From Lactobacillus acetotolerans DSM 20749 = JCM 3825 (GTDB lineage Bacteria; Bacillota; Bacilli; Lactobacillales; Lactobacillaceae), in assembly GCF_001436775.1 (NCBI RefSeq), contig NZ_AYZC01000014.1, positions 1-34,389 of the forward strand: DNA of 34,389 nucleotides, given 5' to 3'. Below are positions 6,665-17,153 of this stretch, in pieces. The number at the start of each line of letters is the position of its first letter. Positions within the stretch are counted from its first letter, which is position 1. Position numbers and translations under genes: made by a program. Below the pieces are notes generated by a model. That model was not told where the DNA came from. It was given only the letters and a program-made list of their open reading frames with translations, and ran no database searches.

Positions 6665-7435
6665 TTACTTGTTATAAATATACTGGTAGAGAATCAATTC
6701 CATAATAATTGCCACAGAAATGCGCGAACTAATATCTACACCATTAACTTTAAGCTCGTCTGTAAATAGGTAAAAGTTTATGTTACTTAGGTTCTGAATG
6801 GTGTTGTTGTCAGCACCGGTGATCGAAACAATCAGAGGCGCCTTATCTTTTTTAATTAATTCACTAATCAGTTGTATGAATTCTTTGTTTTCTCCGTTGT
6901 AACTCATAATAAAAACAATGCTATTTGAGTTTATTTGCTTTTCAGCTATTTTACGGTAATTTTCGTCTCTTGGGAAAAAGACTCTGAAGCCTGCCATTGA
7001 ATAAATAAAATCTAAGTATTCAACTAAATGTTTTGTTGTGTCTTTCGCAAAAAAGTAGATGTCCGGCTTTTTGCGTAAGTCACTTGCTATTAAATTTAAC
7101 TGTTTTTCCTTTAAAACGCGGATTGTTTCTTCTATGTTCTTTAAATAACTTTCCCTATAAGAATTATTTTCAGTGTAAAAAATATTTTTATCGGGGTTCT
7201 CATTCCGATTAATAAGAGTAAATTTGATAACTGTCGCAAATTCACTGTAACCCGAAAAGCCAATTTTACGGACAAATCTGATGAAAGTAGCGGTTGAGAC
7301 GTATGCCATAGATGCAACGTCCCGAATACTTTTACCATTTATTTCTTCCATATTGGAAACAACAAATTCAAAAAGCTTATGTTCGTTTTCAGTTAAATCT
7401 TTTAAGTGCGAACTGGCTATCTCAAAGAAATTCAT
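6665..7435 (-). CDS. MurR/RpiR-family transcriptional regulator
   Basis: A 256-residue regulator with an N-terminal HTH_6 domain (residues about 1-75; KSIRDVASMAYVSTATFIRF followed by KIGFSGYSEF, the RpiR signature) and a C-terminal SIS-type domain (about 105-240). The SIS loop that binds phosphosugars in relatives reads SYNGENKE here rather than the usual Ser-x-Ser-Gly, so the ligand may not be a sugar phosphate. It is transcribed with, and 12 nt after, the agmatine-deiminase-like gene, divergently from the agmatine operon, and is the obvious candidate regulator of both arms. Known enterococcal AgDI loci use a LuxR-type AguR instead. Its operator is plausibly the inverted repeat at 8800-8820. 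Confidence 0.85.
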   Translation of the reverse strand: MNFFEIASSHLKDLTENEHKLFEFVVSNMEEINGKSIRDVASMAYVSTATFIRFVRKIGFSGYSEFATVIKFTLINRNENPDKNIFYTENNSYRESYLKNIEETIRVLKEKQLNLIASDLRKKPDIYFFAKDTTKHLVEYLDFIYSMAGFRVFFPRDENYRKIAEKQINSNSIVFIMSYNGENKEFIQLISELIKKDKAPLIVSITGADNNTIQNLSNINFYLFTDELKVNGVDISSRISVAIIMELILYQYIYNK

Positions 7436-7447
7436 TGTTATATCCTC

Positions 7448-8539
7448 CTAATATCTAGGAATTGCTTTAATAACGGTGTGTAATCCACCGCCCCCGATTA
7501 GTATTTCGCGTACGGGGAATGGAATGATCCTCTTATTTGGATAAATTCTTTGTAAGTGCTTTTTGGTAATTTTATCTTGGGGATCATTAAATTCAGGATA
7601 AATAATAGCTTGGTTCAATGTAATGTAGCTAACATACGTAGCGGTCAAGACCTGACCAACTGCTCGCGACATGAGTCCGTTGATTGAATCAATTCCTTCA
7701 CTCTCTTTTTTGGTTAACCTTTGCGGATGTGGTATTTGAAATTTATGAATTTTAAATTTTCTGCCCTTGACATCTGTAGCTTGGGATAAGATATCGTACG
7801 CTTCTTTGCAGGCAGGGTAGATGTGGCTATTCTTATCATCAGTCCAGGTTAAAGCAATTTCTCCAGGCTTGATAAAAGATACCATGTTGTCAATGTCGCC
7901 ACCCGTTTCATCCAAAAAGTAACCATGTTTGAGCCAAATTATCTTTTTAGCACCTAAATATTCTTTCAATAAAATTGAAATGAATTTCTTGGTAGCACCG
8001 TTGTTTCTGTCTTCTGCTAAAAGAACGTCCTCAGTAGTAATAACAGTTCCTTCACCGTCGGTTATTACTGAGCAGCCTTCAACGATATTTTGGTTAGAGT
8101 AATAGTCTAACCTGAGAAGATCAGCTGTTTTGATTGCTAATTGATTGTCTTTTTTCCAAGGAAAATACAAACCGTCAATTAAACCGCCATAAGCGTTAAA
8201 TTGAAAGTTAACAGCACGCACCTGTCCCAAATTATTTTTTAGGAAAATTGGCAGGGTATCTTGCGCCCATGCATCGTCTGAGGACATTTCGATGACCCTG
8301 GCAAAGTCTCCCACTTTGTTTTTAGCATTTTCGTATTGATCTTCATTGACCAGCATTGTGACTGGTTCAAATTCATTAATTATTTTAGCTAATTTAGTGA
8401 AAGCAATTTGAGCGGGCTTGCCGCCATTACGCCAATTGTCAGAACGTTCCGGCCAAATCATGAAAATCTCTTTTTGGAATGTATAATCTGGCACCATTTG
8501 ATAATTATCATTTTTTGGAGTTGAATTTGTAATTTCCAT
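7448..8539 (-). CDS. Agmatine deiminase paralogue lacking catalytic Cys and His
   Basis: A full-length (363-residue) member of the agmatine deiminase/PPAD family, collinear with the intact enzyme at 13003. Shared landmarks include [14 protein letters not shown] (31-44), [21 protein letters not shown] and EYLGAKKIIWL. Key active-site positions are changed. The C-terminal GGG-N-I-H-C motif reads GGGGLHT, so Thr355 replaces the nucleophilic Cys. DETNGHVDN reads DETGGDIDN, so Asp215 replaces the general-base His. WIRD reads WAQD and EGGSIH reads EGCSVI. No frame damage is present and the reading frame and RBS (AAGGAGATA) are intact, so it looks maintained. It is unlikely to deiminate agmatine and may be a ligand-binding or regulatory pseudoenzyme, or have a new reaction. 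Confidence 0.85.
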   Translation of the reverse strand: MEITNSTPKNDNYQMVPDYTFQKEIFMIWPERSDNWRNGGKPAQIAFTKLAKIINEFEPVTMLVNEDQYENAKNKVGDFARVIEMSSDDAWAQDTLPIFLKNNLGQVRAVNFQFNAYGGLIDGLYFPWKKDNQLAIKTADLLRLDYYSNQNIVEGCSVITDGEGTVITTEDVLLAEDRNNGATKKFISILLKEYLGAKKIIWLKHGYFLDETGGDIDNMVSFIKPGEIALTWTDDKNSHIYPACKEAYDILSQATDVKGRKFKIHKFQIPHPQRLTKKESEGIDSINGLMSRAVGQVLTATYVSYITLNQAIIYPEFNDPQDKITKKHLQRIYPNKRIIPFPVREILIGGGGLHTVIKAIPRY

Positions 8540-8799: not shown

Positions 8800-8820
8800 A
8801 TGTTTCACTATATGAAACAT
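8800..8820. promoter_or_regulatory. Perfect inverted repeat, candidate RpiR operator
   Basis: ATGTTTCA and TGAAACAT flank a 5-nt spacer. It sits in the middle of the 399-bp divergent region, about 45 nt upstream of the plus-strand -35. TGAAA/TTTCA-type dyads are common operators of RpiR regulators. The regulator gene is in the adjacent minus operon. Assignment is inferred. Confidence 0.5.
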
Positions 8821-8853: not shown

Positions 8854-8867
8854 TGGAATCGGTTACA
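8854..8867. promoter_or_regulatory. cre-like site upstream of the agmatine operon
   Basis: TGGAATCGGTTACA matches the cre consensus TGWAANCGNTNWCA at 13 of 14 positions and overlaps the -35 hexamer at 8863-8868. This predicts CcpA repression of agmatine use while preferred sugars are present, as reported for enterococcal and lactococcal AgDI operons. Confidence 0.55.
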
Positions 8868-8938: not shown

Positions 8939-9994
8939 ATGGAAAAAAGAGATTACATCGATACATTTACGTTTTCAAAAGCAGAAATGCAATATATGGT
9001 TGATTTAGGTTTAAAGATCAAAGATTCAATCAAACATGGTTATTACCCACAATTATTGAAGAACAAGAATTTAGGTATGATTTTTGAACAAACTTCCACC
9101 CGTACCCGTAACTCAGCAGAAGCCGCTATGGCAGAACTTGGTGGTCATGCTCTTTACCTTGCACCTGGTCAAATTCAATTAGGCAAGGGCGGTCACGAAA
9201 GTTTAGACGACACCGGTCATGTTTTAGGCCGTTTGCTTGATATCTTAGGTGCCCGCGTTAACCGTCATGAGGAAATTGAAGGCTTAGCCAAGTATTCACA
9301 AGTTCCAGTTGTTAACTTTATGAGTGATAAGAGTCACCCAACCCAAGCTCTTGGTGATTTAACTACTATTGAAGAAAATCTCCCTAAGGGCAAAGAACTT
9401 GAAGACATTAAGTTGGTCTTTGTTGGTGACGCTACCCAAGTGGCAATGTCTACCATGTTCTTCTGTGCCCAAATGGGAATGAAATTTGCTCAATTTGGTC
9501 CTAAGTCAAATCAGATGCCAGCAGATGTTTTGGCACATGCTAAGAAGATTGCTGCAGCAAATGGCGGTTCAATTGAAATTTCTGACGATGAGAAAGTTTT
9601 GCAAGGTGCTGACTTCATCTATACAGATGTTTGGTACGGCTTATACGATAAAGAACTTCAAAAAGATCAATATATGAAGATCTTCTATCCTAAGTACCAA
9701 GTTAGTGATGACTTATTAAAGAAGACCGGTAACCCAGATGTTAAATTTATGCACTGTTTACCAGCTAGCCGTGGTGAAGAAGTTACTGCTTCTGTACTTG
9801 ACGGAAACCATTCAATTGTTTGGGATCAAGCAGAAAACAGAAAGACCGCAATGCGTGCAATCTTTGTTTACTTATTGAATCCTAATATGAAACATGCTTC
9901 TAAAGCTTTAGCTGAAAGATATCAAGGCGAACTTGATGAAATGCTTGCTAAGGAGCCATATCAAGATAACAAGGAATTAGGTATTAAATATTAG
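8939..9994 (+). CDS. ptcA: Putrescine carbamoyltransferase
   Basis: A 351-residue transcarbamoylase. STRTRNS (about residues 54-60) binds carbamoyl phosphate, and HPTQALGDL and HCLPASRGEEVT are the other family motifs. It resembles putrescine transcarbamoylases (YLAPGQIQLG, FVGDATQV, YTDVWYGLYD, MKIFYPKYQV) more than ornithine or aspartate enzymes, and has the long C-terminal helix typical of PTCase. It phosphorolyses N-carbamoylputrescine to putrescine and carbamoyl phosphate in the cytoplasm. It is first in the agmatine operon, with RBS AAAGGAG, and its partners are agmatine deiminase and carbamate kinase downstream. The alternative, ornithine carbamoyltransferase, is disfavoured by motifs and by context. 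Confidence 0.92.
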   Translation: MEKRDYIDTFTFSKAEMQYMVDLGLKIKDSIKHGYYPQLLKNKNLGMIFEQTSTRTRNSAEAAMAELGGHALYLAPGQIQLGKGGHESLDDTGHVLGRLLDILGARVNRHEEIEGLAKYSQVPVVNFMSDKSHPTQALGDLTTIEENLPKGKELEDIKLVFVGDATQVAMSTMFFCAQMGMKFAQFGPKSNQMPADVLAHAKKIAAANGGSIEISDDEKVLQGADFIYTDVWYGLYDKELQKDQYMKIFYPKYQVSDDLLKKTGNPDVKFMHCLPASRGEEVTASVLDGNHSIVWDQAENRKTAMRAIFVYLLNPNMKHASKALAERYQGELDEMLAKEPYQDNKELGIKY

Positions 9995-10021
9995 TCTTTT
10001 ACAAGATTGTAGGTGAGGATT

Positions 10022-11377
10022 ATGAAGTCAGCTACCTCCCAAACGAACGAATTTGAAACAAAGAATGTCAATAAACTCTTTCTTAAGTATGGTTTTGTAA
10101 CGTTAGCTGGGATGCTCGCACAATGTGTGATGGTCATGCTGGAAGCTATTTTTACTGGGAATGGCCTGGGAGCTCTTGGACTAGCTACGGTAAGTATTAT
10201 TATGCCGGTAGAACTACTTAACGATGCGGTTGGTACTGGGTTAGGAATTGGGATTACAACAATTGCAGCCCAATATAAAGGAAAAGGAAATGATGAAAAG
10301 GCTAGGAAAATCTGGAATGATGGTTTCTGGTTTACCTTAATTTTCTCAGTTGCCTTAGCGATTTTAATTGCTGTATTTGCTAACCCAATAGCAAGCATTT
10401 TGGGAGCTAAGGGTCCAATTAAACAAATGACCGTTGAATTTATCCGGGTCTTTATGATTGGTTATCCATTTTGCTTTGTTGGTCAAGTAGGCGTTTCAAT
10501 GCTGCGAGTAGATGAAAAGCCTGGTATGGCAAGTTGGATTACTGCCCTTTCAGCTGTAATTGCCATAGCTGAATTATACTGGGGCATCTTCATTGTTCAC
10601 CTAGGAATTATAGCTTCTGCTATTTATTACGGCTTGAGTCTCGGATTATTCACATTTTCGATTATTCCGTTTCTTAATCCTAAGAATAAATATCATCTTT
10701 CCTTGAATTTAAAATTCAATTGGGCAGATTTGAAGCGTGCTATTGTTTTGTCACTGCCATTTATTTTAATAACCCTATCAAGTGCTATTTATAACTGGTT
10801 AATGAACTTAGTTTTAGGCCATTTTGGTAATAATAATGATATTGCTGCGTTTGGTTTGATTAACGGCTATATCTTCTATGTGTTAAATTTGGTTACTCAA
10901 AGTTTAATGCAAGGGATGCAGCCAATTGCTAGTGATAACTATGGTGCAAAATTACATGGACGTTTAATTCAATTATTGAGGATTAGTATTATTACCAATA
11001 TTATTTCGGTAGCCTTTTTAACCATTATTTTTGCCTTGTTTGCTCACCCCATTGCCGCAATATTTACTTCAAATGCAACGGTAGTAAACATTACTGCCAC
11101 ATCTGGAATTATTGTAGTTGGGTTAACTGCTTTAGGCTCAAGCGTCAACATGATGTCTGGTTACTACCAAGCTATTGGTAAAGCTGGAGCTTCTACCTTC
11201 TTAGGAGTTTTGAAATTCTTAATTTGTGCTAGTCCTTTAGCTTTACTTCTCGCTTATACAGTCGGTATTAAAGGTATTTGGTTTGCACAGCCAGTAGCTG
11301 ATATTATTGCCTTTGCTGTTGCTATGATTTTCTTAGTAAAGGAAATCCGCCTTAATAGGGAAGAGGAATACAAATGA
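10022..11377 (+). CDS. MATE-family efflux transporter in the agmatine operon
   Basis: A membrane protein of about 451 residues with twelve predicted hydrophobic segments in two homologous halves, as in MATE (DinF/NorM-like) cation antiporters. ATG 10022 is preferred, 6 nt after AGGTG; the in-frame GTG at 10013 lies inside that RBS. It occupies the slot where enterococcal AgDI operons carry AguD, an APC-family agmatine/putrescine exchanger; no APC gene is in the window. MATE proteins expel organic cations using Na+ or H+ gradients, so putrescine or agmatine export is chemically plausible but unproven. Its stop overlaps the next start (ATGA), implying translational coupling. Confidence 0.8.
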   Translation: MKSATSQTNEFETKNVNKLFLKYGFVTLAGMLAQCVMVMLEAIFTGNGLGALGLATVSIIMPVELLNDAVGTGLGIGITTIAAQYKGKGNDEKARKIWNDGFWFTLIFSVALAILIAVFANPIASILGAKGPIKQMTVEFIRVFMIGYPFCFVGQVGVSMLRVDEKPGMASWITALSAVIAIAELYWGIFIVHLGIIASAIYYGLSLGLFTFSIIPFLNPKNKYHLSLNLKFNWADLKRAIVLSLPFILITLSSAIYNWLMNLVLGHFGNNNDIAAFGLINGYIFYVLNLVTQSLMQGMQPIASDNYGAKLHGRLIQLLRISIITNIISVAFLTIIFALFAHPIAAIFTSNATVVNITATSGIIVVGLTALGSSVNMMSGYYQAIGKAGASTFLGVLKFLICASPLALLLAYTVGIKGIWFAQPVADIIAFAVAMIFLVKEIRLNREEEYK

Positions 11378-13001
11378 CCCATGCTGATGAAGTTGTAAAG
11401 AGTACGAATATTTGGACCGGAAATTGTGATGAGACTATTTATGGCGGAATTGCTATTAAGAATAATCGGATTATTTACGTAGGATTCCAAGATCTAGATA
11501 AATATGTTGATCCTGACACAAAAGTTTTAGATTATGGTAATCATTTGGTCATTCCGGGTCTTCATGATGGTCATGCTCATATGTTGATGACGGCCTTAAT
11601 GCATTCGGGCAAATGTGCACCCCTTTATAACACCAAGTCTGAAGAAAAATGTGTGGAAATTGTTAAGAAATACGATAAACCTGAAAACTTAATCGGTGGT
11701 TGGCTTATTGGTATGGGCTGGTATCAGCTGCTCTTTGACAACAAGACTTTACCAACTAAGGAGAGTTTAGATAAAGCATTTCCAAATACACCAGTGATTT
11801 TGATGGATTCTAATTGTCATACTGGTTGGGTTAATTCCATAGCCTTAAAGAAACTAGGATGTACGGATGAAAATACTAAAGATAATCCTAATTTTGGTAG
11901 GTTAAAAAATGGTGAGCTCAGCGGTATTTTTGGTGAAGCAACCTTCATGAAGCTATCAACCAAGATTTTGATGGCTGATGAGTCAGCGATGGCTGATTTG
12001 TTAAGTAAAACTACTCACGGAATGAACGCTTTGGGTATGACTCAGTTAGATGATGTGGCTAGTGGTGCTGTTCCCCATTCTGATCAAATTCTGGATAGAA
12101 ACTTGAAGACGAAGGCAAATTAACTGTCCGGGTTAATATGTATCCAACTTTGCTCGACGATTTCACCCGTATTCACCGAATGACTGATGAATGTGGCCGG
12201 GCTAAGGGTGACACTATGCTTGGAGTTGCTGGATTTAAATCATTCTTCGATGGTGTTTCCAGCATGCACACCGCGTTCTTATCGGAACCATATAGTGATG
12301 CTAAGACTCCAAACGACGTCGGGCACTTAACTGTAAAACCGGAAGAAATGCAACGTAGAGCATTAAAGGCCGCTAAAGAAGGTTACAACGTTAAGATTCA
12401 TGCCATTGGTGATGAAGCAGTTACCAAAGCCTTGGATGTCTATGAATATGTTGAAAAGGCTTTAGGCAAGGATATGCCCAAAAATGTTCAATTTAATATT
12501 GAACACCTTGAAAACATCAAAGAAGCAGACATTGAGAGGTTAAGAGATTTACATGTTATTGCTTCAGTTCAGCCTGCACATGCTTTAATTGATCCTCACG
12601 GTGAAGAAAAAGATTTGGGTCAGCACCGAATAAAAATGATGTGGCCATTTAGACATTACCTTGCCCGTGGTGTGAAGATTGCTTTTGGAACCGATACTCC
12701 GGTTGTTGATTATAATCCGTACCAAAATATGTATAATGCGGAAACCAGGAAAGCAATTACCGGTGGAAAAGCTTGGGAACCACAGAACAGTGTTAATATC
12801 CAAGAAGCTTTACGAGCTTATACTTCAGGTTCAGCTTCATGTGCACACCGGCAAAATGAAGTAGGAACTTTGGAAGTTGGGAAATTAGCTGATTTGGCGG
12901 TTTTAAACCAAGACATTTTGAAGGTATCACCTGAGACAATGCTTAACACTAAAGCTGTAATGACAATGGTTAATGGAAAAGTAGTATATAGAGGTAATTA
13001 A
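11374..13001 (+). pseudogene. YtcJ-like amidohydrolase, split by a 1-nt frameshift
   Basis: Two abutting frames together make one amidohydrolase-3 (YtcJ-like) protein of about 542 residues. The first (to 12123) has the metal motif HDGHAHM; the second has IHAIGDEAV, FNIEHLE and FGTDTPV. Frame 1 reads LDRNLKTKAN-stop near 12091-12123, while the other frame there reads KLEDEGKLTVRVNMYPT, the family sequence. Adding one A in the AGAAAC segment at 12097-12102 restores the whole protein. No slippery heptamer is present. The downstream 287 codons are clean, so the lesion is recent or a sequencing error. The substrate is unknown; its place between transporter and aguA suggests a role in agmatine-derived or related amides. 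Confidence 0.85.
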
Positions 13002-13002
13002 G

Positions 13003-14097
13003 ATGAAAACATTAAATTCAAGTCCAAAAAAAGATGGTTTTAGAATGCCGGGTGAGTTTGATGCTCACAAGGGTGTCTATATTCTTTGGCCAGAAAGGCC
13101 AGATAACTGGCGCAATGGTGGTAAGCCTGCTCAAAGAACTTTTGTTAAAGTTGCAGAAGCAATTTCTCAATTTGAACATGTTACTGTCGGGGTCAACGAT
13201 GATCAATATGAAAATGCGGTAACAATGTTACCAGACAATGTTGAAGTAATTGAATTATCCAATAACGATTCCTGGATCCGTGATTGTGGAGCAACTTTTG
13301 TGAAGAATGATAAGGGCAGTATGCGTGCAGTAGACTGGCACTTTAATTCTTGGGGTGGTTTAGTCGATGGCCTTTACTTCCCATGGGATAAGGATGACCG
13401 TGTCGCTCAAAAGATGGCGGAATTAGAACACGTTGATCGCTACCGTTTAGATGACTTTACCTTTGAAGGCGGATCTATCCATGTCGATGGTGAAGGAACA
13501 GTAATTACTACTGAAGAGTGTCTTTTGTCTCAAGGCCGTAACCCACAATTATCGAAGAAACAAATTGAAGAAGTTTTGAAAGAATATTTAGGTGCTGAAA
13601 AGGTAATTTGGTTACCAAAGGGTATTTATCTTGATGAAACTAACGGTCATGTTGATAATATTGCTAACTTTGTATCTCCAGGTCACGTCGTTTTGGCATG
13701 GACTGATGATAAAAATGATCCACAATATGCTGCATCAAAGGCTGATTTAGATGTATTAGAGAATGCGACCGATGCCAAGGGCAGAAAGATTAAGGTAACT
13801 AAATTGTACTTACCAAAGCCAATTAAGATTACCAAAGAGGAATCAGCTGGTGTTGACGCTGTTGATGGTACTTTGCCACGTAAAGAAGGAGATCGTTTGG
13901 CTGCTTCTTACGTAAACTATTACACCGCCAATGGTGGTATTGTTTACCCATTATTTAACGATCCAAATGATAAAAAAGCCAAGGAAACTTTGCAGAAATG
14001 TTATCCTGACCGTAAAATTGTTGGCGTTCCTGCAAGAGAAATTTTGCTTGGCGGTGGCAATATTCACTGTATTACTCAGCAAGTACCTGAAGCCTAA
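13003..14097 (+). CDS. aguA: Agmatine deiminase
   Basis: A 364-residue guanidino-modifying enzyme that hydrolyses agmatine to N-carbamoylputrescine and ammonia. All expected catalytic residues are present: nucleophile C356 in [11 protein letters not shown]216 and D218 in [10 protein letters not shown]155 in FEGGS and D94 in WIRD. It starts one base after the amidohydrolase stop and is followed after 20 nt by carbamate kinase, so it is co-transcribed with the ptcA operon. About half the positions match the inactive-looking paralogue at 7448-8539 by eye. It also helps acid tolerance in other lactic acid bacteria through ammonia release. Confidence 0.93.
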
Positions 14098-14117: not shown

Positions 14118-15065
14118 ATGACGGCCAGAGTTTTAGTTGCATTAGGTGGCAACGCAATTTTATCTAAAGATGCTAGCGCTAGGGCGCAGCAGGCAGCTTT
14201 GAGGGAAACCAGCAAACAATTGGTTAAGTTTGTTAAAAGCGGTGATGAATTAGTCATCGCTCATGGTAACGGACCACAAGTTGGTAACCTGTTATTACAA
14301 CAGGCGGCTGGTTCAAGTGAAGAGAATCCGCCTATGCCAATTGATACTGCTGTAGCAATGACTGAGGGTAGTATCGGTTATTGGTTGCAGAATGCACTAG
14401 GAGAAGAATTAAGCAAAAATAATCTTGCTCAAGAAGTTGCTACCGTAGTAACCCAAGCAATTGTTGATTCAAAGGACCCATCTTTTAAAAATCCTTCAAA
14501 ACCAATTGGTCCGTTCTATAACAAAGAAAAAGCTGAAGAAGTTAAGAAAGAAAATCCTGAATTTACGATGATTGAAGATTCTGGTCGTGGTTATAGAAGG
14601 GTAGTTCCTTCCCCAAAGCCTTTGGCAATTAAAGAAGCCAATACTATCAAAGCAATTATTGATTCTGGTAATATTCCAGTTGCTGTCGGTGGCGGTGGTA
14701 TCCCTGTCGTTCAAGAGGCCAACCGCTTAATTGGCAAAGAAGCAGTCATTGACAAAGATTTAGCTTCTGAAAAATTGGCTGAATTAATAAAAGCTGATGA
14801 GTTAATTATTTTAACCGCTGTTGATAACGTTTATGTTAACTTTAATAAACCGAATCAAAAGAAGTTGGAAGAAGTAACTGTAGCCGATATGAAACGCTTT
14901 ATTGCTGAGAAACAATTTGCTCCAGGCTCAATGCTTCCTAAGGTACAGGCAGCCATCTCCTTTGTTCAGAATAGTAAGAATCCTGATGCGAAGGCAGTGA
15001 TTACCTCACTCGAAAATGTAGAAGATTATCTGAATAATGGTACAGGAACTATAATTAAAAAATAA
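14118..15065 (+). CDS. arcC: Carbamate kinase (agmatine operon)
   Basis: A 315-residue amino-acid-kinase-fold enzyme. VALGGNAIL at the N-terminus, HGNGPQVGNLL (about residues 51-61) and AVGGGGIPV with a following DKDLASEKLA motif are the carbamate kinase signatures. It transfers phosphate from carbamoyl phosphate to ADP, giving ATP, ammonia and CO2, the energy-yielding last step of the agmatine pathway. It is the last gene of the operon, with its own RBS (GAGGGTG) and a terminator 53 nt after the stop. The same protein in agmatine loci is often named AguC; sequence does not separate it from ArcC. Confidence 0.92.
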   Translation: MTARVLVALGGNAILSKDASARAQQAALRETSKQLVKFVKSGDELVIAHGNGPQVGNLLLQQAAGSSEENPPMPIDTAVAMTEGSIGYWLQNALGEELSKNNLAQEVATVVTQAIVDSKDPSFKNPSKPIGPFYNKEKAEEVKKENPEFTMIEDSGRGYRRVVPSPKPLAIKEANTIKAIIDSGNIPVAVGGGGIPVVQEANRLIGKEAVIDKDLASEKLAELIKADELIILTAVDNVYVNFNKPNQKKLEEVTVADMKRFIAEKQFAPGSMLPKVQAAISFVQNSKNPDAKAVITSLENVEDYLNNGTGTIIKK

Positions 15066-15167: not shown

Positions 15168-15195
15168 ATTTAATCACAGAATTCTGTGATTAAAT
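15168..15195. promoter_or_regulatory. Perfect 28-bp palindrome, candidate operator of the AbiL-like pair
   Basis: ATTTAATCACAGAA is followed directly by its exact reverse complement (no spacer), centred on GAATTC at 15179-15184. It covers the presumed -35 position of the promoter whose extended -10 TGCTAAAAT is at 15205-15213. No repressor gene is encoded next to it, so self-regulation or a distant repressor is possible. Confidence 0.65.
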
Positions 15196-15204
15196 GGCAA
15201 AATA

Positions 15205-15213
15205 TGCTAAAAT
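15205..15213 (+). promoter_or_regulatory. Extended -10 promoter of the AbiL-like pair
   Basis: TGCTAAAAT fits an extended -10 (TGnTATAAT). The sequence 17 nt upstream (TGTGAT) is a poor -35 and lies inside the palindrome. Transcription would start near 15220, just before the RBS AAAGGGGGG at 15222-15230. Confidence 0.5.
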
Positions 15214-15238
15214 TATGAATAAAAGGGGGGCTTTAATA

Positions 15239-16543
15239 ATGTTAATTGAATTTAAAGTTAAAAACTTTGCCTCTTTTAAAAATGAGACAATTTTATCAGC
15301 TGAAACCGGTGAAAGACTTAGAAAGTATAAGGGTATAAATACTTTTGAAGATGGCCCAGTTTCTCTATTAAAGAATTTATTAATACTTGGGCCTAATGGA
15401 TCAGGTAAAACTGAATTATTAAATGCTCTTCGTACAATGGATAGAATCGTAGAACGCGGGGGAACTGCTTCGGTTACAGATCAACTTCCATATAATCCAT
15501 TTGCTTTTGATCCCGATGAAACAAAAGGAGATACTGGATTCAGTATAATAATTCAAGTTGCTAATAAAATTTATAATTATTCTTTTAAATATAATGCTGA
15601 TGAGATAACTTATGAGAAATTATCTTTACTTTCAGGAGATAAAGAAAAAATTTATTTTGAAAGAAAATTGCAAAGGTTTGTTAAATTACCTAAATCTTTA
15701 GAAGGACTTTCTTCGAAATTAAGAAAAAATGCTCTTTTTTTATTTCTTGCGCAACAAAATAATGACCAAAATTCTGCTAATGTTTATCGTTGGTTCAGAG
15801 AAGATCTTATTTACGTAACTTCTGAGCCAATTGGTATCCCACAATATTTATTGGGATTAATTAAAAATAATGATTTGAAAAATGAATTAGTATCTTTTTT
15901 AGAGTTTGCTGATTTTAATATTATTGATTTAGAAGTAGAAAAAGTTCCGCTTACAATTAATCCTGATATGAAAGATTTTGCCGATAAAATGAATTTACCC
16001 ATGTCGGTAAACTCATTACAGTTGTTCACAGAACATAAAGTATATGATTCAAGTGGAAAAGTAGTTGGAAAACAGAAAATGCCAATATTGGCTGAATCTA
16101 CTGGAACAGCACAAGTATGTCTTATTGCTTTATTAATCATTTGGGCTCAAGTACATAAAAATAATAAAACTATTATTATGGATGAATTTGATAATTCGCT
16201 ACATCATGAATTAGCTAGTGCATTAATTACTATTTTTAATTCAGCAGAAAACAATAATCAATTTATATTAACGACCCATGATTTACAGTTATTAGATAAT
16301 AATCTTAGAACTGATCAAATTTATTTATTAGATAAGGATTTTAAAGGTATCAGTGATCTGAAATCAATTTTCGATTTCAATGATTCTAGAAATATAGGAA
16401 GATCAGATTTATCACTTGCTAAGCGATACTTAAAAGGCAGATATGGTGCAATGCCAGTTATTGATGTTGATGGATTGATGGATGTATTGAAATCTACATA
16501 TCAAAAATTAAATGGAGATACAAATGAGTCGAACAAAGCGTAA
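15239..16543 (+). CDS. OLD-like AAA ATPase, AbiLi/RloA-like defence protein
   Basis: A 434-residue ATPase from ATG 15239, which has RBS AAAGGGGGG; the upstream in-frame ATG at 15194 lies in the palindrome and promoter and is rejected. MLIEFKVKNFASFKNE is the usual start of AAA_21/SMC-like defence ATPases. Walker A is GPNGSGKT (51-58); Walker B is TIIMDEFDNSLH, followed by the switch histidine in FILTTHDLQLLD. It overlaps the RloB-type gene by 20 nt. This pair matches the organisation of lactococcal AbiL (AbiLi/AbiLii) and resembles PARIS-type ATPase plus Toprim systems. The ATPase probably senses phage and controls the effector. The region is visibly more AT-rich than neighbouring housekeeping genes, consistent with transfer. 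Confidence 0.8.
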   Translation: MLIEFKVKNFASFKNETILSAETGERLRKYKGINTFEDGPVSLLKNLLILGPNGSGKTELLNALRTMDRIVERGGTASVTDQLPYNPFAFDPDETKGDTGFSIIIQVANKIYNYSFKYNADEITYEKLSLLSGDKEKIYFERKLQRFVKLPKSLEGLSSKLRKNALFLFLAQQNNDQNSANVYRWFREDLIYVTSEPIGIPQYLLGLIKNNDLKNELVSFLEFADFNIIDLEVEKVPLTINPDMKDFADKMNLPMSVNSLQLFTEHKVYDSSGKVVGKQKMPILAESTGTAQVCLIALLIIWAQVHKNNKTIIMDEFDNSLHHELASALITIFNSAENNNQFILTTHDLQLLDNNLRTDQIYLLDKDFKGISDLKSIFDFNDSRNIGRSDLSLAKRYLKGRYGAMPVIDVDGLMDVLKSTYQKLNGDTNESNKA

Positions 16544-17153
16544 ACATGTTTCTGTTAAGAAAAGTATTTATCTCTTTTGTGAGGGTGAAACCTAAGCAAA
16601 CTATTTCAAAATGTTAAAGCAAAAGTATAGAAGTTTTAGTGTTTCTGTTTTAGATCCATCTAGATCCGGTATAAAGATAAAATCACTGGATCGTTCTGGT
16701 GAAGAATTAATTAATAAGGCGATAAACGATAAAAAGAAAAATAAACAAATAAAAGCTAATGATCCTATCTATGTAGTTTTTGATAGGGATAAACATGATA
16801 AAAAAGAATTATTAAGATGTAAAAAATTAGCACGAGAAAATAATATAACAATATTATTCTCATCTATTTGTTTTGAAATTTGGATTTTAATGCATTTTGA
16901 ACCAGTTTTTAGTAGTTATAGTAGTGATGAACTATTTAAAAAACTTTCTGGTCCTAAGTATTTTGATCAAGATTATAAAGATTTTAAGGGTGTAGATATT
17001 AGAAAATTACGTCCATTTTTATTTGATAATGTTCAATTCGCCAAAGACAATGCTGATAAATTATATAAGATTCATCACGACATGATTAATGATGATCCTT
17101 TTACTAATGTAGGTAATTATTTAAAAGAAATTTTTCAAACAAATGAACTTTGA
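16524..17153 (+). pseudogene. RloB/AbiLii-like Toprim effector with premature stop
   Basis: From ATG 16524 (RBS TGGAG) the frame reads MSRTKRKHVSVKKS then IYLFCEGET, TAA at codon 24 (16593-16595), then ANYFKMLKQKY and an open frame to 17153. RloB proteins have CEGETE at this place; a G-to-T change turns GAA into TAA. The downstream acidic motif VVFDRDKHD is intact. CEGETE plus DRD are the metal-binding acidic motifs of this Toprim-like fold. Reinitiation at M30 (16611) would lack the first motif and probably be inactive. The rest of the gene (180 codons) is undamaged, so the mutation is recent, selected, or a sequencing error. Confidence 0.8.

Follow-up and report, generated by a model that had tools for sequence, protein, structure and literature searches.

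A catalytically degenerate agmatine deiminase paralogue paired with an RpiR-type regulator in Lactobacillus acetotolerans and related bacteria

The 34,389-nucleotide contig stretch of Lactobacillus acetotolerans DSM 20749 analysed here (the window) contains the only two agmatine deiminase (AgDI) genes of this genome, aguA and aguA2 (Table 1). The product of aguA2 has lost the catalytic Cys and His of the enzyme. These changes define a clade in which Gly159→Cys came first, all acidic residues of the substrate pocket are kept and the gene for an RpiR-type regulator is the constant partner, features that the first-pass annotation of this DNA had overlooked. As judged from the sequences, AguA2 may well be a pseudoenzyme sensor or co-regulator acting with the RpiR-type regulator, in which the agmatine pocket was retained and deimination given up.

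Table 1. Features of the agu locus in the window (position 1 is the first nucleotide of the stretch).
Feature	Position	Strand	Basis
rpiR-type regulator gene (HTH_6 + SIS), 12 bp downstream of aguA2	6665..7435	-	Pfam; adjacency in 66/66 loci; SIS motif compared with same-genome paralogues
aguA2, 363-aa agmatine deiminase paralogue with a degenerate catalytic site (pentein fold)	7448..8539	-	intact ORF; PF04371; residue table; member of the AguA2 clade
Probable regulator operator, perfect palindrome TGTTTCACTATATGAAACA in the divergent aguA2/aguB intergenic region	8801..8819	.	sole perfect TGTTTCA-N5-TGAAACA of the genome; conserved before aguB elsewhere
Putative cre (CcpA) site TGGAATCGGTTACA, matched by eye	8854..8867	+	cre consensus TGNAANCGNTTNCA
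aguB, putrescine carbamoyltransferase	8939..9994	+	494 bits to TIGR04384 (cut-off 500)
MATE-family transporter in the usual permease slot of the operon	10013..11377	+	profile match
Amidohydrolase (Amidohydro_3), interrupted near 12100 by a frameshift that leaves two ORFs	11374..13001	+	profile match
aguA, AgDI whose catalytic residues are complete (Cys356, His216)	13003..14097	+	profiles; alignment
aguC/arcC, carbamate kinase	14118..15065	+	profiles

The AguA2 protein of the window is 50% identical to AguA, with no frame damage in the alignment. It shows full-length homology to AgDI, matching PF04371 over residues 15–361 (306 bits) and the structures 2ewo and 2jer with 332 and 325 bits, respectively. 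It passes the cut-off of the NCBIfam agmatine deiminase equivalog TIGR03380 and falls below that of NF010070 (438.6 vs 483). Both catalytic residues characteristic of EC 3.5.3.12 are missing: the nucleophilic Cys356 of AguA is replaced by Thr355 and the catalytic His216 by Asp215. The first-pass annotation had reported these two replacements, together with an intact reading frame and the changes of WIRD to WAQD and EGGSIH to EGCSVI, and the alignment to AguA bears out all of them. The acids that bind the guanidinium and amine groups (D89, D94, E154, E211, and D217) are all present. A sequencing error or a one-off pseudogene was considered and ruled out, because orthologues in dozens of species share the same residue changes.

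The distribution of such proteins was analysed with one genome per species. Among 75 genomes of the genus only one other carries an aguA/aguA2-like pair, while in the family sample AgDI-like genes occur in 65 of 398 genomes, many with two; loci of related families were added, their assignment to Listeriaceae and Enterococcaceae being read from gene content and from a Listeria record (L100). A search of contigs for related loci elsewhere returned only two Christensenella AguA genes. In a tree of 93 proteins, built with the catalytic columns left out, AguA2 forms one clade of 50 representatives (SH-aLRT 95), found in Lactobacillaceae, Enterococcaceae, and Listeriaceae. The window protein belongs to this Listeria-type clade, being placed apart from AguA and having Cys at position 159, where the clade has Cys or Ser (residues of clade members are numbered here and below as in Enterococcus faecalis AgDI). 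It is the most diverged member, with 11 of the 94 AguA2-invariant columns changed, including W119Y and R299V (next highest 5, median 1), and has the longest terminal branch of the clade (0.78), yet lies within the starred set of 18 AguA2 rows.

The clade preserves a graded series of losses. Position 159 is Cys in 63 and Ser in 5 of the 68 AguA2 proteins, so the Gly is lost in all 68; His218 is lost in 60 (Asp in 56, Ala in 4, His in 8) and Cys357 in 41 (Thr in 26, Ser in 15, Cys in 27). The Asp and Thr of the window protein are thus shared by homologues in many other species, a point that the first-pass annotation had proposed to check. Listeriaceae AguA2 and one further protein (L154) keep both His218 and Cys357, so that in Listeria only Gly159 is changed; Enterococcaceae AguA2 have Asp218 and retain Cys357; most Lactobacillaceae AguA2 have lost both, position 218 being Asp (or Ala) and position 357 Thr or Ser. 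On the tree, the loss of His218 maps to a single event and changes of the nucleophile Cys357 to at least three. Catalysis was lost in steps, the earliest being Gly159→Cys in the common ancestor of AguA2.

The fixed replacement of Gly159, with strong purifying selection on AguA2, could also be taken as a sign of a new reaction, in which, for example, the Cys of the EGC motif (Cys156 in the window protein) acts as a relocated nucleophile. This is very unlikely: positions 218 (D/H/A) and 357 (C/T/S) vary, unlike those of a new active site, and the Cys159 change is common to the AguA2 of Listeria, which retains the usual catalytic Cys and His and reportedly has no AgDI activity (PMC7698193).

The substrate pocket has a different history. 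Five pocket carboxylates (D91, D96, E157, E214, and D220) and the gate-loop R294 are invariant in 68 of 68 AguA2 proteins. By alignment to the Medicago (plant) enzyme, D96 and D220 hold the guanidinium group, and E214 and D91 hold the far amine (PMC6447857). Since none of these six residues ever varies, the substrate pocket has been kept while the chemistry has not. In 10 close cross-species pairs the dN/dS of AguA2 ranges from 0.023 to 0.110 (median 0.054; medians for AguA and the regulator, 0.022 and 0.019), far below the value near 1 that the first-pass annotation had set against a maintained function. These figures are those of the clade and not of the window copy, for which no close strain was found and dS has reached saturation even against its nearest relatives.

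The progressive loss of catalytic residues would also be expected of a redundant copy decaying without function. AguA2 does evolve faster than AguA (mean distance 0.66 vs 0.23), one aguA2 gene (L084) is frameshifted and the window copy is unusually diverged. Against this stand frames that are intact across many genera, the low dN/dS of close pairs, the invariant pocket acids and the constant adjacency to the regulator gene, and decay is the most improbable of the explanations considered.

The usual gene order across the sampled loci is aguB, transporter, aguA, arcC, aguA2, and rpiR. In the window the aguA2–rpiR pair is inverted and divergent from the rest of the operon, as the first-pass annotation had described, and the two genes share a reading frame across a short linker. 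Sixty-six loci encode AguA, AguA2, and a full-length regulator; in every one of them the regulator gene directly follows aguA2 on the same strand. The gaps range from −194 to +17 bp, frequently with a 4-bp overlap; the large negative values arise from counting the regulator ORF from its first possible start codon. The pair is unbroken in rearranged loci (the window and L040) and on plasmids.

The two proteins also share their pattern of divergence. With the other operon genes controlled for, the partial distance correlation between AguA2 and the regulator is 0.60–0.67 (Mantel, 0 of 2000), compared with −0.20 to 0.06 for AguA and the regulator and −0.20 to 0.05 for AguA2 and ArcC, though arcC is usually the other neighbour of aguA2; these values come from simple pairwise distances, in which the slowly evolving AguA carries less signal. 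Coevolution within a two-gene unit is no proof of contact. An AlphaFold run with four sequences gave pLDDT 50 and pTM 0.55.

Other protein families include inactive paralogues that modulate their active relatives, and AguA2 could likewise join AguA, which has the same fold and half of its residues identical, in mixed oligomers that modulate the enzyme. The partial correlation of AguA with AguA2 is, however, only 0.12–0.21, and the constant neighbour of aguA2 is the regulator gene and not aguA, so that this arrangement appears quite improbable.

The regulator encoded in the window contains the domains of the RpiR family, HTH_6 (57.2 bits) and SIS (40.3 bits). Its SIS motif is SYNGEN instead of the S-x-[ST]-G-x-T of a phosphosugar-binding loop, while two other RpiR paralogues in the same genome show the usual form of the motif, SNSGET and SVTGET, with the Thr kept. 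The last position of this loop is Asp, Asn, or Glu in 74 of 74 regulators; in Streptococcus pneumoniae NanR the equivalent residue, Thr184, binds phosphate (PMC12713135).

Among the sampled Lactobacillaceae genomes, no intact regulator of this type was found without an aguA2 locus. The exceptions carry damaged genes: in L073 a single deletion that starts at arcC codon 33 and ends at regulator codon 161 removes aguA2 and truncates the regulator at its 5′ end, in L158 and L159 the regulator genes are 5′-truncated and agu genes are absent, and in L084 it is aguA2 that is frameshifted. In four Listeriaceae species AguA2 is absent from the entire genome, whereas the regulator, AguA, and the aguB operon are present. 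The regulator can therefore work without AguA2, at least there, and AguA2 is not essential to it in every lineage.

Of 69 regulator-containing loci, 62 have a palindrome TGTTNC-N7-GNAACA with at most one mismatch before aguB, mostly 120–160 bp ahead of the start, as against 21 of 1380 shuffled sequences. It is present, again with at most one mismatch, in three of the four Listeriaceae species that have the regulator and lack AguA2. This conserved palindrome is probably the operator of the RpiR-type regulator.

The persistence of regulator and operator in these species is what would be expected if the regulator were its own sensor of agmatine or of a pathway product, by way of the changed SIS pocket, in which the acidic or amide side chain standing in place of the phosphate-binding hydroxyl would suit a cationic ligand; AguA2 would then be a helper, for instance an agmatine buffer setting the threshold of induction. 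This explanation is rather unlikely, as it does not account for AguA2 tracking the evolutionary rate of the regulator and not that of the enzymes, nor for the lack of intact regulators without an aguA2 locus in the sampled Lactobacillaceae.

The role of AguA2 as a sensor or co-regulator is favoured because it fits several observations: AguA2 has kept its pocket and lost its chemistry, the regulator lacks a phosphate site, and the two genes are paired and share an evolutionary rate. AguA2 would bind agmatine (or N-carbamoylputrescine) and pass the ligand signal, presumably by physical contact, to the product of the adjacent RpiR-type regulator gene. The regulator would bind the TGTTTCA-N5-TGAAACA palindrome and control the aguB–transporter–aguA–arcC operon, probably in the direction of induction by agmatine. 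Retention of His218 and Cys357 in Listeria AguA2 counts against such a role, as do the four Listeriaceae species that have the regulator and lack AguA2 and the strong divergence of the window copy. The first-pass annotation had offered three options for the gene, of which the sensor gains from the invariant acids and from the order and rate shared with the RpiR gene, while the AguA modulator loses from the weak AguA–AguA2 correlation and the new reaction from the lack of a conserved replacement nucleophile or base.

A parallel is provided by yeast Gal3, a paralogue of the enzyme that opens its pathway; Gal3 has no catalytic activity and serves as a ligand sensor controlling transcription of the pathway. 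The likeness is one of analogy only, Gal3 being a eukaryotic protein of unrelated fold that acts on Gal80. By this analogy, AguA2 and the RpiR-type protein might together form a split agmatine sensor, in which the dead enzyme gives the pocket and the regulator without a phosphosugar site gives DNA binding, a bacterial counterpart of Gal3 with the stages of conversion still visible in living species; we put this forward tentatively. If it is true, extant sequences make it possible to trace how an enzyme turned into a regulator.

An inactive second AgDI copy is already known in pieces. AguA2 of Listeria monocytogenes is reported to be non-functional as an agmatine deiminase (Cheng 2013, as cited in PMC7698193 and PMC8811131). 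Like the window gene, L. monocytogenes aguA2 (lmo0040) belongs to the same clade, occupies the same operon position beside the orthologous RpiR gene (lmo0041) and carries Gly159→Cys; unlike the window protein, it has both catalytic residues. The study of Listeria AguA2 reportedly blamed the Gly→Cys change for the inactivity.

Levilactobacillus brevis, like the window, has two AgDI genes, as the first-pass annotation had rightly stated, and a putative regulator; only aguA1, which is agmatine-induced, is described as encoding a catalytically active enzyme (PMC3499163). In the literature searched, the second copy was neither explained by its active site nor given a role in regulation.

In E. faecalis and Streptococcus mutans, agmatine-responsive control of aguBDAC is exerted by AguR (PMC3796520), a regulator of a different type from the RpiR-type protein, and no AguA2 was found among the sampled E. 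faecalis-like AgDI loci. The same paper notes RpiR genes near the agu clusters of L. sakei, P. claussenii, and L. monocytogenes and gives no functional data for them (PMC3796520). The sensor role of AguA2, if true, would explain the agmatine response of agu operons that lack an E. faecalis-type AguR. As far as the literature searched shows, the new elements are the stepwise loss of catalysis throughout a clade that conserves the pocket, a degenerate RpiR regulator with which AguA2 is constantly paired and coevolves, and the probable operator of that regulator. Because TIGR03380 and public records name AguA2 an agmatine deiminase, putrescine-forming enzymes are over-counted in food and beer bacteria.

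The agu locus, including the aguA2–rpiR pair, is located on mobilizable plasmids with transposase genes nearby in the beer-related Secundilactobacillus paracollinoides and Loigolactobacillus backii (L038 and L039). A MATE transporter replaces the common agu-operon permease also in L045, L080, L082, and L084. The split amidohydrolase of the window is either a broken gene or an assembly error; L080, which has a MATE transporter too, encodes an intact 545-aa relative at the same operon position. The window locus may be changing or decaying, as AguA2 is highly diverged, the regulator is among the two most diverged and the amidohydrolase is frameshifted. The aguB product is also unusually diverged (mean distance 0.577 vs 0.345 overall). 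Directly after arcC, genes at 15194–17153 encode an AAA_21 ATPase followed by an RloB-like protein, with matches to AbiLi (247.7 bits) and AbiLii (37.7 bits), and probably represent an AbiL-type anti-phage pair.
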